Positions 39,031 to 48,951 of a stretch of 64,000 nucleotides of DNA are shown here, in pieces. Below the pieces are notes generated by a model, which had not been told where the DNA came from, did no database searches, and saw only the letters and a program-made list of their open reading frames with translations. The first letter of the stretch is position 1; every line of letters starts with the position of its first letter. Made by a program: the position numbers and the translations under genes. Origin of the DNA: Thermococcus piezophilus (GTDB lineage: Archaea > Methanobacteriota_B > Thermococci > Thermococcales > Thermococcaceae); the NCBI RefSeq assembly GCF_001647085.1, contig NZ_CP015520.1, forward strand, positions 1,632,219 to 1,696,218. The letters are read 5' to 3'.

Positions 39031-39640
39031 TCATGTGTAGCTTCCCGAATATACATACTTATCTGACAAAAACGCCATAATCTTCCCACTAGTATTTGTG
39101 TCCACAAGGACATTCATGATGATTGCATCATCCTTAGACAGCCTATCTGCTGAAATGAGCATGAACCCATAACAGTTTGGATAATTCTCCCATCCGTCCA
39201 CTATTACAGTAGCCCATGGATACAGGACATCATATTCCGTGCCCTCTGTTGGAACCTTTGAATGGGAGATTATACAACCCGGAAAGTATATCCTAACTTT
39301 GAAATCTTCCACCACATCACTCTTATCCTCTATCACGACAGTGTATACCCTGTAACTCTCTTTCCAGTTACGTTGTTAAGTGTCTTTACCGGAGTTCCGA
39401 CACCGTAAGCCTTCGTCAAGGATCATTGTACCATACACTGACTGACACCTGTGGTTCCTCAAAAATCCCTATTTTTGTGTAAACGAACGCTACCATAGGA
39501 TCTACAAGAGGAGTAAGGGCAATTCCAAGGACCAAACCCAATAGTACCCCTTTTCTTCCACTTATTTTTCTCCATGCCTTTTGAATTATGCCTCCATCCT
39601 TATTGTCCCTTTTATTTTGGTAGTTACTGGATCCTTCCAC
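39031..39640 (-). pseudogene. Broken membrane-anchored extracellular protein gene
   Basis: Read leftward from about 39640, an N-terminal cytoplasmic stretch and one membrane helix (GVLLGLVLGIALTPLVDPMV) lead into an extracellular region (PQVSVSVWYND). Two frame changes follow, each explained by one missing base, near 39418 and 39378, joining YGVGTPVKTLNN and WKESYRVYTVVIEDKSDVV. The rest (FPGCIISHSKVPTEGTEYD to SDKYVYSGSYT) is open to the stop at 39031. No family is recognised. The start overlaps the end of the DUF763 remnant. The region is AT-rich. Confidence 0.5.
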
Positions 39641-40559
39641 GGTGGATAGACATCGTAAACAAGCTCCAGAACGAGCGATAGAGCCCTCAGCGTGCTCGGG
39701 CCGAGACCCTTCAGGAGGAGAAGCTTCTCGTAGTTATTCACACTTAGCTCGCGGGCAAACTCAAGGGCTCTCTTGTTAAGCTCCAACCTTCCGAGGCTCT
39801 CGTATCTCCTGAGAAGGGAGACCTCATCGACGTCGCGCGGCTTGTAGTAGACAAGCGGTCGGTAGCCCCTCGCTATGGCCTTGAGGCTCTCAAACTCGCG
39901 CTCTATCTTCACGGGCTTTTCCTTGATGATATCGAGGAGCGTCTTCTGATATTCCCCGGCCTCTTTCGAGACAGTGTTCAGCGCAAACTCCCTCTTTAAA
40001 CCTGCAATCCCCTTGTGGGGGTCGAGTGTGAAAACCTCTGCGTCAAACCAGTGGAAACGCCTCGCGAGCCTTTCCCTCTCGTTCATACCCTGATGTATCA
40101 CTGCTCAGTTGCCCTCTTCGTCCAGGAAGAAGACGTGGTGGTACAACTGATAGCCCGTCTGGAGGGCCACTGTGTCGCCTTTGCCACAAGCCTGGACGTT
40201 CTGACGTATGGAGTCGGGTCGAGGTCGTAAATCTTGGCTATGGTTTTCAGTTCCTCCGGCGTTGCCCTGCTCTTCTTGCCCTTTCCGCCGGCCGCTTTAA
40301 CCCCGAGTTCCTCCCTCCAGAGGGCGTCCTTTATCATCCCTGCCGTTACCGTCGTACTCCCAGAGGAGTCCCAGTCCATGCCGATGACGTTGTTGAAGGC
40401 CTGAAACCATATCGGGTCGGATAGCCTCTCCAAGAGACCTTTAGTCCCGTACTCATCCACAGCCAGAAGAAGGACTAAGCGGGTGAGCCTTCTCATCCTC
40501 TGGGCCAGCAAGGGCGGAACGTGGCCGCCGTGGAGAGGTAAATCAGCGACGTTCCTCAT
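39586..40559 (-). pseudogene. Broken DUF763 gene
   Basis: The N-terminal part (NVADLPLHGGHVPPLLAQRM, YGTKGLLERLSDPIWFQAFN, NVIGMDWDSSGSTTVTAGM) and the C-terminal part (RRFHWFDAEVFTLDPHKGIAG to the end) are clearly one DUF763 protein. Near 40205 the frame shifts by one missing base between PTPYVR and VQACGKGDTVALQTGYQLYH. About 30 codons later, near 40114, a TGA stands where a conserved Trp (GNWAVIHQG) is expected. Two independent lesions argue for genuine decay. The product's biochemical role is unknown in the family. Confidence 0.7.
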
Positions 40560-40729
40560 CAGGGTTATATCATCACTCAATGTTTTAACCGTTGTTCCGG
40601 AAAATCATCATGTGAGAGCCAGGTGAGATGCATAATCATCGATTTAACCTGGCAGTAAAACAAGGAAAGCCTTTTTATCTTCTACTTCGATTTTCGTCTG
40701 CAGGTCTAATGCTGAAGGAGGTCGCGATA

Positions 40730-41457
40730 ATGGGAGTCGAAAAGGTTCCGAAGTATGACATCCCGACGGTTAAGGTTGATTACGTTTTTATCGAGCTCGA
40801 CAAGATGAAGCCACACGAGCAGCTCGTCCAGAAGGAGCTCGAGGCATTCATCGAGAGCGTCACCGGCTCCGGCCTCTTCTGGAAGCCGATGCTCCTCGCG
40901 AAGGTCCCGGGCGAGGACATGTACCTCATCGTTGACGGCCACCACCGCTGGGCCGGCCTTCAGAAGCTCGGCGCCAAGCGCGCCCCGTCGGTCATCCTCG
41001 ACTACTTCAGCGATGATGTGAAGGTCTACACCTGGTACCCTGCCTTCAAGGGCAGCCTCGAAGAGTTCTTGAGAGGCTCAAGACCGAGGGTCTCGAAGTC
41101 ATCGAGGATCCAGAGGCCGAGGAGAAGGCCGAGAGTGGCGAGATAGCATTCGCTCTCGTCGGCGAGAAGCGCTTTGCCATCCCCGGCGGCATTGATGAGC
41201 AGAAGAAGGTCAGCAAGGTTCTCGACGAGATGAGCGTTGAGGGTAAGATTGAGCTCATCTACTACGGTCTCAAGGAAGACGCTAGAGAGGACATGGCAAA
41301 GGGCGAGATTGACTATGTCTTCCTTAGGAAGGCTCCGAGCAAGGAAGAGGTCATGGAGCTCGTCAAGCGCGGTGAGGTCTACTCCCCGAAGACCACTAGG
41401 CATGTCCTTCCGTTCAACCCCGATAAGATAGACGTTAAGATTGAGGAGCTCTTCTGA
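40730..41457 (+). pseudogene. serK: ADP-dependent free-serine kinase (SerK) gene with one frameshift
   Basis: From ATG 40730 (GGAGGT 8 nt upstream) the first 113 or so residues match SerK, a ParB/Srx-fold kinase that makes O-phosphoserine from serine and ADP for cysteine synthesis. Key positions are Glu30 (KPHEQ), the reported catalytic residue, and the DGHHRW loop at 69-74. Near 41069 one base is missing. The original frame then reads GSRPRVSKSSRIQRP to a stop at 41146, while the expected sequence (ERLKTEGLEVIEDPEAEEK and on) continues in another frame to 41457. With one base restored the product would be 242 residues, normal length. It may be a sequencing error or a recent loss. Confidence 0.75.
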
Positions 41458-42424: not shown

Positions 42425-43442
42425 TCAAACCCCGAACTTCTCCTCGATATACGCTCTGATCAACTCTTTCGTCGCATTAAGCCCCTTGACGTGAGTGCGC
42501 TCCATGCCGTGACTGGCATGGACGCCTGGGTCAATGAGCGCAACCCTAAAATCCCAGCCGGCCCTTAGAGCGGCTGAACCATCGGAGCCGTAGTATGAGA
42601 AAACATCGATGACGGGGGGATGTCGTGCTTCTCCGCCAGTTCTATCAGCTTTGTCGTCATTCCGTAGTCGTAGGGGTCGCTTGAATCTTTGGCCGCTATT
42701 GAAACGGCCGTCTCTTTGCCAGCGACGCAATCGCCGACGATGCCCATGTCCACAACGAGCAGCTCCTTTATCGTTGGTGGATAGCCAGTCGAACCGCCGT
42801 GGCCGGCCTCCTCGTAGGGCGAGAAGAAGAACGCTACCGGAAGCTTCTCAAGGGCTTCGGCTCCCAAGTCAAGGATTAAGTCTATCATCACGGCCACGCT
42901 CGCTTTGTCGTCAAGGAAGTAGGCCTTGACGAAGCCGTTCACGTACTCAAACTTTGCATCAAAGGCTATGAAATCGCCTGGCCCTATGCCGAGCTTTTCG
43001 GTGTCTTCTCTCTTCTCGACCTCTGCATCAACCTTATGTACATGTTCTCCTCCTTGCGCTCCTTCTTTCCGGCATCTCTGTTCACGTGGACGCTTGGGTT
43101 CTTGAGGAGGAGCGTTCCGCGATAGCGCTTGCCCGAGCGGGTTATTATGGTGCAGTACTCACCCTCGAATGTGGGCAGAAGAAGACCGCCGATTCTTGTG
43201 AATGAGAGATGTCCATCCGGAAGGATTCCCTTCACCATCGCTCCGGGAGTGTCCACGTGAGCCGCTATCACGAGCTCCGGTTCTGGATGGTTGCCCGCTA
43301 TCAAGGCCCCTTTGTTGGTGTAGTAAGTATTTACTCCGTTCTCACGCAGGAGATTCTCGATGTGCTTAATGACCTCAACGGTGTAGCCGGTCGGGGAGGG
43401 TATCTCCAGAATCTCTTTGAGTACCTCGACCACGCGCTCCAT
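42425..43442 (-). pseudogene. M42-family aminopeptidase gene with two frameshifts
   Basis: From ATG 43442 (GGTGGTT upstream) the sequence matches M42/TET peptidases: LEIPSPTGYTVEVIKHIE, VIAAHVDTPGAMV with metal ligands His and Asp, and VHVNRDAGKKERKEENMYIR. One missing base near 43036 shifts to VDAEVEKREDTEKLGIGPGD, which continues with YFLDDKASVAV, SPYEEAGHGG and VVDMGIVGD. A second missing base in a run of six C near 42613-42618 shifts to VIDVFSYYGSDGSAALRAG and ends with HASHGMERTH. All catalytic motifs survive across the three pieces. These enzymes form dodecamers that trim peptides in the cytoplasm. Confidence 0.75.
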
Positions 43443-44379: not shown

Positions 44380-44435
44380 GGGGACGATTTAGATTTGAGC
44401 GTTAAAACGTTTTTGGCATCACAGACCGATAAACT

Positions 44436-44479
44436 TTTATATACCTACTGCCCAAGTTAAGTACAGAAAATTGTACTAC
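44436..44479 (+). promoter_or_regulatory. Promoter and operator of the ArsR/DUF4097 cassette
   Basis: A TATA box (TTTTATATAC, 44435-44444) is followed by TTAAGTACAGAAAATTGTAC (44457-44476). This contains a perfect inverted repeat, GTACA-6 nt-TGTAC (44461-44476), and a further TCTGTAC lies at 44485. The repeat covers the expected transcription start, a position where a bound repressor would block transcription. The first gene encodes an ArsR-like repressor, so autoregulation is likely. A very similar sequence lies before the MFS gene at 47686. Confidence 0.6.
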
Positions 44480-44502
44480 AAAAGTCTGTACCTGGTGGTA
44501 GC

Positions 44503-44907
44503 ATGGAGGATCTAAAGGTTCAGCTCGAGGAGCTGAAAAAGAGGCTGGAGGTGCTTGAAGAGAGCATTGACCCCGTGGACGAGGTGATGCTCTCGATAAA
44601 GGCCCGGCTCAGGAAGAAGCTCGAGAGCCTTCCAGAGCTTGACGAAGAGAAGGCAGCGAGGACGCTGAAGGCTTTGGCAAACCCTGATAGGATTAGAATC
44701 CTCAAGATGCTCTCCGAGAGGCCAATGGGCTTCAAGGAGATAAAGGAAGCGCTGGGTGTGGAAAGCCCCACCGTTTCACACCATCTCAAGCTTCTCGTCA
44801 AAACGAGGATGGTCAGGAAAGGTGACAAGTACGAGATATCGCCCGACGGTCGTTTGTTTTTGCGTTTGCTAGAGATAATTACTGCCCTTGAGGAGGTGGA
44901 AGAATGA
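44503..44907 (+). CDS. ArsR-type winged-helix transcriptional regulator
   Basis: This 134-residue protein has an N-terminal coiled coil (VQLEELKKRLEVLEESIDP) and a winged helix-turn-helix from about residue 53 (ALANPDRIRILKMLSERPMG, EALGVESPTVSHHLKLLVKT). It contains no cysteine, so it cannot be a classic thiol-metal ArsR sensor; the coiled coil probably gives dimerisation or senses a partner. It is followed by a membrane protein whose ATG overlaps its stop (ATGA). An operator-like repeat at its own promoter suggests autorepression. Confidence 0.88.
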   Translation: MEDLKVQLEELKKRLEVLEESIDPVDEVMLSIKARLRKKLESLPELDEEKAARTLKALANPDRIRILKMLSERPMGFKEIKEALGVESPTVSHHLKLLVKTRMVRKGDKYEISPDGRLFLRLLEIITALEEVEE

Positions 44908-46208
44908 GTTTTGAGTGGAAGTACCGTGTGGTGGTACACGAGAGTCCAAGGTTTAAGATCTCTGAGTATCTGAAGGGTTTTACAGCCGTTTTGCTGCTTC
45001 TCTGGCTGTTCAAGGGGCTATTGAGGCTTGAGGAGTACAACGACTACATGGTCTATGCGATAATAGGTTTGATATTTGCCTTCGAGCTGCTGAGCGTGGG
45101 GAAGTGGTTCGGCGTAACGCTGAGCGGAATAATCTTTGCGCTGGCAAAAGGTGCCTTCTGGACAAGCGTCTTCCTGTTCTTCGGGAAGTGGCTCGGCATG
45201 TTGAAGGCCCTTAGCGGATATGCTGGAACGGCCTTCGCATACGCAGTTGTGTTGACCATCACGGGTCTGCTGATGGCTAAGTTTGACGAGAAGAGGCTCG
45301 ATATAAAGGTCGAGAAAAGCGCCTACGAGTTCAACGGTTCAGACTTCAGCGACGTGAAGCTCAGGGGAAGCGGTAAAGCGTATCCCATTAGATTTGGCAG
45401 AAAAAAGGTTGGCTGGGTTCTGGATGGGGAATTCACAGTCGAGGCAGAAACCCCACTTGGGACTGTAAGGAAGAAGTTGATTTCCCCAGTTGCCGTCTGG
45501 ACATCTGAGAACATAACCGGAAAGAAGACCTCCCCCGATTCCTCCTTCGTGGAAAGGGTAAACGAATTGATAAACCCGGACAGGCTCTACAAGAGGGGCA
45601 GGAGGGACACGGTGGTTGACCTTGGCTTCATCAAAGTCTATGGGGGAGAGGGTTATGAATATGTTAAGCTTCCGTTCATCGAGGTCATAGAGACCCCAAG
45701 CGGCCACGATGTCAAGATAGGCCCCATGAGGTTCCGTGAGGGGCACCCTGAGAGACCGTCAAGCGAGATGCTCACCATCAGGGAGCTTGCCAACGGCTTC
45801 CAGCTCACCAAGGTTGGCGACAGGCTGAGGATTCAGACGGACGAATACTCGATAGAGGTTGACGGCGAGAAGGTTCTCTATAAGAGCGGAAGCGAGAGCC
45901 TATCCCTTGGGAGAGACCACGTCTCACTCCGCTCCGGAGAGGTTTTGATAACGGTGGGCAGGGGAAGGGCAAAGATACGCATCGAGGAGGTGGTGATCTC
46001 GGCCAAGGAAGGAAAGGTCCGCATAAGGGCCGGTGGGAAGAGCTACACGGTAGAGAACAAAGATGCCTACAGGCTCGTCATGGGGAAGGCCAAGGAAATC
46101 GTGGAGGAACAGAGCGCGGAGCTAATAGAGGGCCTTGGCATAGACCGGGCCAGACTAAACAGGCGCGTGAAGGAGCTCCTGGACAAGCTAATGGAGTACT
46201 TAGGGTGA
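44904..46208 (+). CDS. Membrane protein with large soluble domain, cassette component
   Basis: This 434-residue protein is not a family I recognise. Residues 25-130 hold about four membrane helices (FTAVLLLLWLF, YAIIGLIFAFELLSV, GIIFALAKGAFWTSVFLFFG, AFAYAVVLTITGLLMA). The remaining 300 residues are soluble, beta-rich and charged (for example LGRDHVSLRSGEVLITVGRG), ending in a helical segment. With positive charges after the last helix the soluble part is probably cytoplasmic. It is translationally coupled to the ArsR-like regulator, which makes it a candidate sensor or anchor for it. Confidence 0.7.
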   Translation: MSFEWKYRVVVHESPRFKISEYLKGFTAVLLLLWLFKGLLRLEEYNDYMVYAIIGLIFAFELLSVGKWFGVTLSGIIFALAKGAFWTSVFLFFGKWLGMLKALSGYAGTAFAYAVVLTITGLLMAKFDEKRLDIKVEKSAYEFNGSDFSDVKLRGSGKAYPIRFGRKKVGWVLDGEFTVEAETPLGTVRKKLISPVAVWTSENITGKKTSPDSSFVERVNELINPDRLYKRGRRDTVVDLGFIKVYGGEGYEYVKLPFIEVIETPSGHDVKIGPMRFREGHPERPSSEMLTIRELANGFQLTKVGDRLRIQTDEYSIEVDGEKVLYKSGSESLSLGRDHVSLRSGEVLITVGRGRAKIRIEEVVISAKEGKVRIRAGGKSYTVENKDAYRLVMGKAKEIVEEQSAELIEGLGIDRARLNRRVKELLDKLMEYLG

Positions 46209-46213
46209 AAGGA

Positions 46214-46330
46214 ATGGAAACAGTTGCCGTGATAGTGGAGGTAAATACACCTGAGGAACGCGAAAAGAAAAACGGCCACGAAAGGCCGCTTTTTGATTTT
46301 ATTCCTTGTTCGCTGGAGGGATGTCTGTGA
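46214..46330 (+). CDS. 38-residue micro-ORF coupled to DUF4097-like gene
   Basis: An ATG at 46214 has GGGTGA 6-7 nt upstream. It encodes a 38-residue peptide (METVAVIVEVNTPEEREKKN at its start, DFIPCSLEGCL at its end). Its TGA overlaps the GTG start of the next gene as GTGA, the coupling arrangement used throughout this genome. It begins 5 nt after the membrane protein's stop. It has two Cys near the C-terminus and no membrane helix. A hairpin with a T-run lies inside it, so it could act as a leader peptide. Confidence 0.45.
   Translation: METVAVIVEVNTPEEREKKNGHERPLFDFIPCSLEGCL
46273..46294 (+). terminator. Stem-loop with T-run inside the cassette
   Basis: CGGCC (46273-46277), loop ACGAAA and GGCCG (46284-46288) form a perfect 5-bp stem followed by CTTTTTGATTTT. 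It lies between the membrane protein and the DUF4097-like genes, inside the micro-ORF. It could reduce read-through to the downstream genes, and translating ribosomes could suppress it. Confidence 0.45.
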
Positions 46331-47013
46331 GGTTCGAAGGGGTACGAGAAGTTGAGATAGACATAACCAAGGGACACATCAAGCTTGAATGGTGGGAAGA
46401 GGATTACGTGGAGTTGAACCACAGTTCAGAGGGAAAAGCTACTGTCAAAGCTGTTCAAAAGGGAGAAAAGCTCAAAATAGTGGGAGGAGTTAGAAGAAAA
46501 GCCTTCAACTTCCTCAGGAAGCTTGATGATGGCAGGGCCGAGCTGGAAATCAGGGGGCCTGGAGATACGCGGGTTCATCTCCAGGGTTTTAGGGGAGATA
46601 GCGAGGCCTCAGAAGTGAACTTCGAGAACGTGGTGTGTGGTGGGGGAACCCTTATCCTAAAGAATTGCACGGCTAAAACTCTAACACTGGCCCAATCAAC
46701 GCTCAAGGCTTTGCTTTCAGTGGTGGGCTCTATGAGCATCAACATTGCGAGGAGGGATGCGGAACTCAGGATTACGGAACTCGAGGGAAACGTCCGCGCG
46801 AATGTCGTCATAGGTGCCCTCAGGCTGTATCTTCCTGACACCTGCGACGCCAGGATTAACGTTGCATCCCGGAGAAAGGAAAGGGTATGGTTCGAGGGGG
46901 TTGGTCCACTGGATCCCATTATCGGCACAGGGAAGTACAAAGTCACCATAACCTCGGAGATGGACAACGTTACCATCGGACTGCATGAGGAGGATGGTTG
47001 GGATGATGTTTGA
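46327..47013 (+). CDS. DUF4097-like beta-repeat protein 1
   Basis: This 228-residue protein has the same layout as its downstream neighbour: REVEIDITKGHIKLEWWEED at the start, repeated short strands, and DPIIGTGKYKVTITSEMDNV at the end. It is a divergent paralogue whose Val-Asn-Gly repeats are mostly lost. DUF4097 proteins form right-handed beta-solenoid-like folds, and in bacteria occur in envelope-stress modules such as LiaX. I start at GTG 46327, because GGAGGG lies 6 nt upstream and an ATG at 46321 touches that motif. It has no signal peptide. Confidence 0.7.
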   Translation: MRFEGVREVEIDITKGHIKLEWWEEDYVELNHSSEGKATVKAVQKGEKLKIVGGVRRKAFNFLRKLDDGRAELEIRGPGDTRVHLQGFRGDSEASEVNFENVVCGGGTLILKNCTAKTLTLAQSTLKALLSVVGSMSINIARRDAELRITELEGNVRANVVIGALRLYLPDTCDARINVASRRKERVWFEGVGPLDPIIGTGKYKVTITSEMDNVTIGLHEEDGWDDV

Positions 47014-47665
47014 AAACGTGAGGGAAGTTCAGATAAAGTCCGTGAACGGCCGTATCAATATCGAGGGCTGGGACAACGACTACGTGGAAGTCGATTATAC
47101 TCTACACGGTGAGGTAGATGTTGAAGTAGAGCAGGAAGGGGATAAGCTTGTCATCAAAGAAAAGCCCCGGACGAAAAAAGTCCTTGGCATCTTCCAGAAG
47201 TCTTCAGACGGTTGGGCGGAGATTGAGCTGAAAGTTCCGAGGAAAGTCGTTGTGAAGGCTAAGAACGTCAACGGGGAGCTTCACGCAAAGAACGTCCGCT
47301 TCACCGAAGCCATAACCGTTAACGGTGAGCTTGAGCTGGAGAACTGCGAGGCGGAGCTTATAAAGACGGTCAACGGCGAGGCGAAGGCGAGCCTCCCCAC
47401 AGCCGGCCCGCTGAAGGCGACGACGATGAACGGGGATATTGTGCTTGAGATTGAGGAGCTGGAGGACGACATAGAGGTAAAGAGCGTGAACGGGGACGTG
47501 GTGGTTCGTATCACTGACTTCTGCGACGCGCGCATAAAGGTCACTAAAGTCAACGGCGACGTTGAAATTGCTGGAATAGACTCCAACGACCCCGTTATTG
47601 GGGCCGGAACTTATGAGGTTAAAGTAAGCACCGTCAACGGTGATGTGAGGGTTGAGCTTATTTAA
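47003..47665 (+). CDS. DUF4097-like beta-repeat protein 2
   Basis: This 220-residue protein contains eight Val/Met-Asn-Gly turns at fairly regular spacing (SVNGRI, NVNGEL, TVNGEL, TVNGEA, TMNGDI, SVNGDV, KVNGDV, TVNGDV), the pattern of a DUF4097 beta-solenoid. It lacks a signal peptide, so it would act in the cytoplasm or at the inner membrane face. The start is ATG 47003, with AGGAGG 9 nt upstream; it overlaps the end of the first DUF4097-like gene by 11 nt. It is the last gene before the MFS promoter. Confidence 0.78.
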   Translation: MMFENVREVQIKSVNGRINIEGWDNDYVEVDYTLHGEVDVEVEQEGDKLVIKEKPRTKKVLGIFQKSSDGWAEIELKVPRKVVVKAKNVNGELHAKNVRFTEAITVNGELELENCEAELIKTVNGEAKASLPTAGPLKATTMNGDIVLEIEELEDDIEVKSVNGDVVVRITDFCDARIKVTKVNGDVEIAGIDSNDPVIGAGTYEVKVSTVNGDVRVELI

Positions 47666-47709
47666 AAGTCTAATTCTCTACTTACTTAATTACAGAAATG
47701 GTGTAATAC
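47658..47709 (+). promoter_or_regulatory. Promoter and second operator, before the MFS gene
   Basis: A TATA-like TTATTTAAAAG lies at 47659-47669. TTAATTACAGAAATGG (47686-47701) is followed by TGTAATAC (47702-47709). It contains the inverted repeat ATTAC-9 nt-GTAAT. Aligned with the sequence at 44457 it shares TTAA, TACAGAAA, GTA and TAC in the same order, with one extra base in the spacer. The two sites therefore probably bind the same ArsR-like repressor. Confidence 0.55.
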
Positions 47710-47721
47710 GGAGGGTAGGGA

Positions 47722-48951
47722 ATGAGCCTCAACAGAAACTTCTGGCTCTTCGCGGTCGGCCGCTTCATCTCGCAGCTCGGCTGGGCGGTGCAGGAAGTCG
47801 CTTTGCCGCTTTACGTCCTTGACCAGACCCATAGTGGTGGCATGATGACACTCTTCGTTTTAGCGGACATCATCCCCTCTCTCATTATAATGCCGTTCGC
47901 GGGTGTAATAGGTGATCGCTACAACAGGAAAAAGCTTATGGTGGGCTTTGACCTCGCGAGGGGAGTTCTCCTCTTCGCGGTCATAGCGTTCAACTTCCTC
48001 GGCATCTACCAGCTACTCACAATTCAGGTCGTCATGGCGGCCATGGGAACGTTCTTCGGAGCCGCCACGAGCGCGATGTTTCCGGACCTAGTTGAGCCTG
48101 AAGAGCTGGAGAAGGCAAACTCCACGGTGAGTTCGTTCTCAATAATAGCGAGGCTCGTCGGTCCAGCCTTGGGTGGCCTCATCTACGCCTTTGGGGGGAT
48201 AAAGCTCGCCCTGCTCATAAACGCGATGAGTTTCTTTGGCTCCGGCCTGTTTGAAGCTCTAATACACTACGAGTGGAAGACGAGGGAGCTTGAGAGCGCC
48301 AGACAAGTCATCGAGGACATAAAGGAGGGAATAGCGTTCCTGCGCTCCAGCCACTACCTCATGGTTCTCATGTTCTTTGCCCTCTTCATGAATGCCCTCG
48401 GTCAGCCCTTCGGCGCGGTTATAATGCCCTACTCCTTCAGGGAGATCCTTAAGTTTTCCAGCCAGCAGTTTGGACTGCTCGAAAGCGCCTTCATGGGCGG
48501 CATGCTCCTCGGCAACCTCCTCATAGCAGTGAAGCTGAAGAGGCCGGGCAGGCTGTTCTTCAAGGCGCTTGCATTCAACGGTGCCATGATGTTAGTCTTC
48601 ATATGGGTGGTCTCGCCTTATGCAGAGCTTGCCACGACGGTTGCATTCTTTATCCTCGCCGGAGTGTCCATACTGTGGGGCTTTAGCAACGCGCTGATTA
48701 ACGTTCCCCTCAACGCCAAGATACAGCGTGCTATTCCCACAGAACTCCGCAGTAGGGTTTTCTCCGCCCTTGCCCTGCTCATAAACCTATCCGCGCCTCT
48801 CGGCCTTGTGGTTGTGGGGACTCTGATGGACCGCCTCCCTGTCTGGCAGATAAGCGCCGTCCTTTGGATTATGATGGGGGCCGTGATACTCCACTACTAC
48901 ATCAAGCATAGGGAGACCCTACTCAGGGAGCAAAAATATGGAGAGAGCTGA
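47722..48951 (+). CDS. MFS-type exporter
   Basis: This 409-residue protein has about 12 membrane helices and the MFS motif between helices 2 and 3 (GVIGDRYNRKKLMVGFDLAR). Its sequence style (PLYVLDQTHSGGMMTLFVL, LVEPEELEKANSTVSSF) is that of the macrolide/enterobactin-exporter group (MefA/EntS-like), so drug or metabolite efflux is likely. GGAGGG lies 6 nt before ATG 47722. It is probably controlled by the ArsR-like regulator through the operator at 47686. Confidence 0.9.
   Translation: MSLNRNFWLFAVGRFISQLGWAVQEVALPLYVLDQTHSGGMMTLFVLADIIPSLIIMPFAGVIGDRYNRKKLMVGFDLARGVLLFAVIAFNFLGIYQLLTIQVVMAAMGTFFGAATSAMFPDLVEPEELEKANSTVSSFSIIARLVGPALGGLIYAFGGIKLALLINAMSFFGSGLFEALIHYEWKTRELESARQVIEDIKEGIAFLRSSHYLMVLMFFALFMNALGQPFGAVIMPYSFREILKFSSQQFGLLESAFMGGMLLGNLLIAVKLKRPGRLFFKALAFNGAMMLVFIWVVSPYAELATTVAFFILAGVSILWGFSNALINVPLNAKIQRAIPTELRSRVFSALALLINLSAPLGLVVVGTLMDRLPVWQISAVLWIMMGAVILHYYIKHRETLLREQKYGES

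Follow-up and report, generated by a model that had tools for sequence, protein, structure and literature searches.

An ArsR-type regulator (R), a membrane protein of an unnamed family (M), Toastrack proteins (D2 and probably D1) and an exporter (T), encoded together on a Thermococcales chromosome of 1,928,800 bases, are read here, with somewhat better than even confidence, as a self-repressed membrane-stress and export operon in which R represses the genes and M relieves R under stress. This reading is based on the conserved order of R, M and T (57 of 57 loci), the joint occurrence of R and M (the same 70 of 94 genomes), an operator at a fixed distance from the TATA box, the persistence of the R-M pair in distant lineages, the Toastrack fold of D2 and the metal induction of the T orthologue tg1358; the lack of an operator before T, the poor modelling of the conserved core of M and the failure to match the SdpI and SdpR families count against it. 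Within this proposal, repression of the operon by R can be predicted with high confidence from the sequence, relief of R by M is suggested with moderate confidence by analogy, and a scaffold formed by the Toastrack proteins and a micropeptide near the membrane is put forward with low to moderate confidence. The window, that is, the whole stretch of 64,000 nucleotides that was analyzed, contains the following elements of the operon:

44425..44443, plus strand: BRE/TATA element of the R promoter, ACCGATAAACTTTTATATA; most columns nearly invariant across 57 loci
44461..44491, plus strand: operator, two abutting TACA-N6-TGTA palindromes, in 57 of 57 loci
44503..44907, plus strand: R, 134 aa, ArsR-type winged-helix regulator (Pfam HTH_5, E 1.9e-13)
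44904..46208, plus strand: M, 434-aa membrane protein with 4 TM segments, unnamed family (AlphaFold2 model, family and fold searches)
46205..46330, plus strand: micro-ORF, 41 aa, C-terminal motif GHERPLFDF (codon pattern; LFD core in 28 loci)
46321..47013, plus strand: D1, 230 aa, putative divergent DUF4097/Toastrack protein (aligns with D2)
47006..47665, plus strand: D2, 219 aa, DUF4097/Toastrack beta-helix (Pfam E 1.3e-13; Foldseek to 4QRK)
47722..48951, plus strand: T, 409 aa, MFS H+-antiporter-type exporter (TIGR00900, E 8.7e-101)

All of the genes that a first-pass annotation had assigned to this cassette were found in place on one strand, including the ATGA overlap that couples R to M and the 8-nt overlap of D1 and D2; the operator and the conservation of the micro-ORF, whose GTG start overlaps the M stop (GTGA) and which itself overlaps D1, were not part of that account. 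Elsewhere in the window, a peptidase-like gene on the minus strand (42425-43442) is split over three frames (-3, -2 and -1), as a result of either recent decay or sequence errors, and its T. gammatolerans copy is intact. In the list of open reading frames, two further genes, one at 39586-40580 (minus strand) and a ParB-like one at 40628-41457, also appear frameshifted, so assembly indels may be present in the stretch 39586-41457; the operon itself is intact.

Comparison of the window with 56 orthologous loci (57 in total) showed that R, M and T are kept in this order on one strand in every Thermococcales locus, which places their synteny far beyond chance. At least one D gene is present in 56 of the 57 loci, two or more D places in 17 and two T genes in 18, and the identity of R among Thermococcales loci is 77-98%. 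The proposal that these genes form one cassette had been staked on their homologues occurring together in other genomes, and the conserved neighbourhood bears it out. Across 94 Thermococcaceae genomes, M was found in 70 and R in exactly those 70, and the complete genomes that have neither belong mainly to genus g4 and to part of genus g5. The search found no plasmid-borne copy of M, and the DUF4097 genes of a genus without R and M were rejected as members of the cassette, being a separate stand-alone paralogue with other neighbours.

A 31-nt operator, GTACAgaaaatTGTACTACAaaaatcTGTAC (written also GTACAgAAAAnTGTACTACAAAAaTcTGTAC), lies just 3' of the TATA box of R in all 57 loci, at a site where archaeal repressors block polymerase. 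It is made of two abutting palindromes, GTACAGAAAATTGTAC and CTACAAAAGTCTGTAC, that have one base in common, and it begins 24 nt from the start of TTATATA in 47 loci and 26 nt from it in the other 10. Over these 31 nt the mean column identity among the 57 loci is 0.96, compared with values of mostly 0.3-0.5 farther upstream. When up to two mismatches are allowed, the double site occurs once in the genome of the window and about once in each other genome, at R; genus g4 has just rare matches with two mismatches. The single palindrome was rejected as the mark of a genome-wide regulon, since GTACAN6TGTAC with one mismatch was matched 34 times versus 35 in the control, and this chance frequency argues that the operator is a local switch. 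On such sequence grounds, control of the R promoter by R is well supported, and the earlier claim that an ArsR repressor acts on its own operon becomes very probable as far as repression of the R promoter is concerned. Between R and a divergent membrane-transport gene (PF03547, 43498-44379), a different element, GTTAAAACGTTTTTGGCA (window 44401-44418), is unique in the genome and conserved in about 10 species, and it probably belongs to the promoter of the PF03547 gene.

Additional copies of the operator were found in four genomes. Good extra sites precede an ABC exporter in two of them (G039 and G066), and in a third (G058) an extra site stands before an 86-aa hydrophobic, small membrane-protein-like ORF that is followed by a second TIGR00900-like, T-type MFS gene (L107 7283-8781); in a fourth (G081), the second site precedes an R gene at a contig end. 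The sites in the first three genomes, where operators have moved to exporters, provide independent support for an export function.

The assignment of R to the ArsR/SmtB winged-helix proteins follows from scores of 50.5 bits against HTH_5 (cut-off 22) and 58.1 bits against NF033788 (cut-off 55), and its 44.2 bits against the SdpR model NF033789 lie below the cut-off of 100. Apart from its DNA-binding domain, R has a leucine-rich N-terminal extension that is short and helical, and no obvious ligand domain. It contains no cysteine in the window copy or in four other aligned Thermococcales R proteins, and so lacks a cysteine metal or thiol site there; 1-3 cysteines occur in two distant homologues, and both R and M are free of cysteine in nearly all Thermococcales copies that were checked.

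The AlphaFold2 model of M, built with 23 homologues, contains four TM helices (15-131), a beta domain, a core, a beta-helix (289-383) and a C-terminal helical hairpin, with a mean pLDDT of 74.8, and the most conserved core (about 239-278) falls in a part of the model that is not confidently built (about 227-286). The even number of TM helices would place both ends of M on one side of the membrane, probably the cytoplasmic side. When 23 members of the M family were scanned, no Pfam or NCBIfam family was matched, nor was one of the SdpI/DUF1648 type; Pfam likewise gave no HAAS (DUF1700), LiaF-type or PspC domain in M, and Foldseek gave no PDB match to its fold at E<=1e-3. The idea that the beta-helix of M is a Toastrack homologue found no support in an hhalign comparison of M with D, which was not significant (probability 0.8%).

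With a profile search, M was also detected in other families within the same phylum, in Theionarchaea and in genomes of the Methanofastidiosia type. In 9 of the 9 Theionarchaea/Methanofastidiosia-type loci that have enough upstream sequence, M is directly preceded by a gene for an R-type protein on its own strand, and no D or T neighbour was found for these distant M genes. At two Theionarchaea loci, where R is just ~30% identical, GTACATAGAAATGTAC presents the same palindrome in the same place. These features indicate that R and M are a core pair, older than the operon. In some distant loci, the interval from R to M also encodes a small protein with two Zn-ribbon-like (CxxC-like) cysteine pairs (L049 3510-3887 and L050 8494-8838), which is a possible extra sensor component in these lineages.

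The age of the R-M pair bears on an alternative in which R directly senses a small molecule, such as a drug or metabolite exported by T, and M, instead of being a sensor, is a further effector that serves, for instance, in membrane protection or immunity. ArsR/MarR-type repressors beside exporters often bind ligand themselves, as do many one-component efflux regulators, and recruitment of the operator to other exporters needs no M. However, the pairing of R with M is older and tighter than that of R with T, distant lineages keep R and M without T or D, the two proteins co-occur exactly, and the short helical extension of R offers no obvious ligand domain, so that direct sensing by R is considered rather unlikely.

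D2 scores 51.3 bits against DUF4097 (cut-off 22.9), and its AlphaFold2 model (pLDDT 94.7) matches 4QRK in Foldseek (E 1.2e-8), a structure that has been named as a Toastrack (PMC11237479), so sequence model and fold agree and a Toastrack fold can be predicted for D2 with good confidence. It contains VNGxI repeats and a conserved cysteine (FCDAR), and no TM segment, signal peptide or membrane anchor was seen in it. D1, present in a minority of genomes, has only 14.3 bits against DUF4097 (cut-off 22.9; E 0.027) and aligns with D2 at 33% identity, which argues that the two are homologous. Toastrack domains have been argued to be intracellular and to build sub-membrane signalling complexes (PMC11237479). 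The first-pass annotation had tied the DUF4097-like genes to envelope-stress modules, a link upheld by the predicted Toastrack fold of bacterial modules, and had drawn a comparison with LiaX that is a poor one: D2 shares the DUF4097 domain with LiaX and LiaG, at ~35 bits per NCBIfam model (35.5 for LiaX), but it falls far below the cut-offs of 350 (LiaX) and 285 bits and is a stand-alone domain without an anchor.

For the micro-ORF, the LFDF core of its GHERPLFDF motif is found in the window and 27 other loci, and about half of the loci have no micro-ORF. In the LFDF codons, positions 1 and 2 are invariant or nearly so and position 3 varies at 0.45-0.51, a pattern that makes translation of the micro-ORF, and selection on its peptide, very probable; the EG..L end is due in part to the next gene, whose ribosome-binding site and start codon lie there. 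The possibility that this region is a mere hairpin or terminator was rejected, as 1 of 9 predicted pairs covaries and the codon pattern is that of coding sequence.

The exporter T scores 337.9 bits against TIGR00900 (cut-off 319.6), which places it among the drug:H+ antiporters of the MFS, and does not reach the cut-offs for Mef and Tap. This agrees with the earlier proposal that the output of the operon includes an exporter, and suggests, with moderate confidence, that T exports a toxic compound. In genome G040, the T copy is the sole close T relative that was found, and counting of ORFs from landmarks named in papers identifies it as tg1358, at most one number off. The landmarks recognized from sequence are those which we take to be tg1302/tg1303 (glutaredoxin-like/SurR), tg1315 (acetyltransferase), tg1390 (amylopullulanase) and tg1396 (RNA methylase). 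G040 itself is taken as the T. gammatolerans EJ3 genome (PMC2718504). Expression of tg1358, a 'drug antiporter protein, MFS', was reported to increase 41.4-fold with 1 mM Cd, 32.1-fold with Zn and 9.1-fold with Ni, and to change -1.5-fold with heat shock and 1.1-fold with gamma rays (PMC3407056). Given such strong inducibility, metals belong to the stimulus, although they may act indirectly. The main text of this publication names only tg1358, and not tg1359-1361, as Cd-regulated, so T could be induced alone (PMC3407056). No gene related to these appears in the main text of a paper on thermal stress in P. furiosus.

These data invite the alternative of a metal-stress system, in which Toastrack cysteines or a metal-disturbed envelope sense Cd, Zn or Ni and T exports metals or metal-ligand complexes. 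The published induction of tg1358 (41x, 32x and 9x, respectively; PMC3407056) and the conserved FCDAR cysteine of D2 are in its favour; nevertheless, R and M lack cysteine in nearly all of the Thermococcales copies checked, T falls in the drug:H+ antiporter group and not in a metal-exporter group, and the same kind of response was reported for a MATE drug pump and further transporters (PMC3407056), so the signal may be a general disturbance, all of which makes this alternative quite improbable. The earlier statement that the signal is unlikely to be a thiol-bound metal thus stands with respect to R and M, and is at odds with the metal-inducible expression of the T orthologue.

The first-pass annotation had also placed the whole cassette under shared control, which agrees with the promoter found upstream of R and not with the region before T, where the R operator is not repeated, so that control of T would depend on read-through. 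A candidate second operator just upstream of T, TTACAGAAATGGTGTAA, was rejected, as a similar sequence was seen in the window and one close relative only. In many genomes, the gap between D2 and T (47666-47721 in the window) contains a repeated AT-rich TTTAATT/TTCAATT pattern with a period of ~8 nt. That R controls R and M only, with D2 and T as conserved neighbours under their own promoter and other control, would fit the upstream region of T, which is without the R operator and often has the TTTAATT element, and would also fit the sequence that separates M from D in some genomes, where a T-rich stretch comes after a potential hairpin, yet it is made very doubtful by M-D gaps of 0-15 nt or slight overlap in many loci, order and strand kept in 57 of 57, and transplanted operators that stand before exporters.

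The known system whose working the operon would most resemble is the immunity pair of Bacillus subtilis sdpRI, in which SdpR is an ArsR-family autorepressor and SdpI, the adjacent multi-pass membrane protein, a signal-dependent anti-repressor. In both cases, an ArsR-family autorepressor (putative for R) shares an operon with a multi-pass membrane protein; however, the archaeal operon also encodes Toastrack proteins and an exporter, and it is not filed as a member because M is outside the SdpI/DUF1648-type families and R is below the SdpR cut-off (44.2 vs 100 bits). The operon is also like the PspA-free, Lia-like and PadR-HAAS Toastrack neighbourhoods, which combine a transcription factor, a multi-TM protein, a Toastrack and sometimes a transporter and for which sub-membrane stress complexes have been proposed (PMC11237479), but R is of the ArsR type and not PadR, LytTR or two-component, and M has no such Pfam domain. 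Neither ArsR nor Thermococcales is mentioned in that study (PMC11237479).

In the proposed self-repressed operon, R dimers would bind the two abutting palindromes over the transcription start and block their own promoter, a step for which the sequence argues strongly. M, a four-helix protein with a probably cytoplasmic C-terminal domain, would be the dedicated partner of R, and a disturbance of the membrane or of the export demand, with heavy metals as the stimulus documented in one species, may cause M to draw R off the operator, as SdpI does with SdpR. Once derepressed, the operon would supply further R and M and the MFS pump T, which would expel the offending compound. It would also supply one or two soluble Toastrack proteins, probably as builders of scaffolds beneath the membrane, and, in loci that have it, the micropeptide.

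No earlier account of this operon in Thermococcales was found in the open-access literature, and subscription journals may hold one; it is real, old and apparently undescribed, although the combination of autorepressor, membrane partner, Toastrack and transporter is of a kind already known. What is new here is the operator, the age of the R-M pair, the unnamed M family, the conserved micropeptide and the mapping of T to the metal-induced tg1358. With slightly less than even confidence, R-M can be viewed as an undescribed archaeal membrane-to-DNA pair, in which a new membrane family antagonizes a repressor, that predates the split of Thermococci, Theionarchaea and Methanofastidiosia and keeps a recognizable operator, and to which Thermococcales added Toastrack, micropeptide and exporter to form an archaeal counterpart of Lia/Psp envelope-stress responses.

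Little is known of the way in which archaea detect injury to their ether-lipid membranes and turn on pumps. This operon provides a concrete case: its operator is sharply defined, its membrane partner is dedicated, metal induction of its pump has been published, and genetic tools work in its host group (T. kodakarensis). The operon further defines a conserved micropeptide and a family of membrane proteins that has no Pfam or NCBIfam name; it also suggests that archaea possess Toastrack-based stress modules with a kind of regulator unlike those of bacteria.
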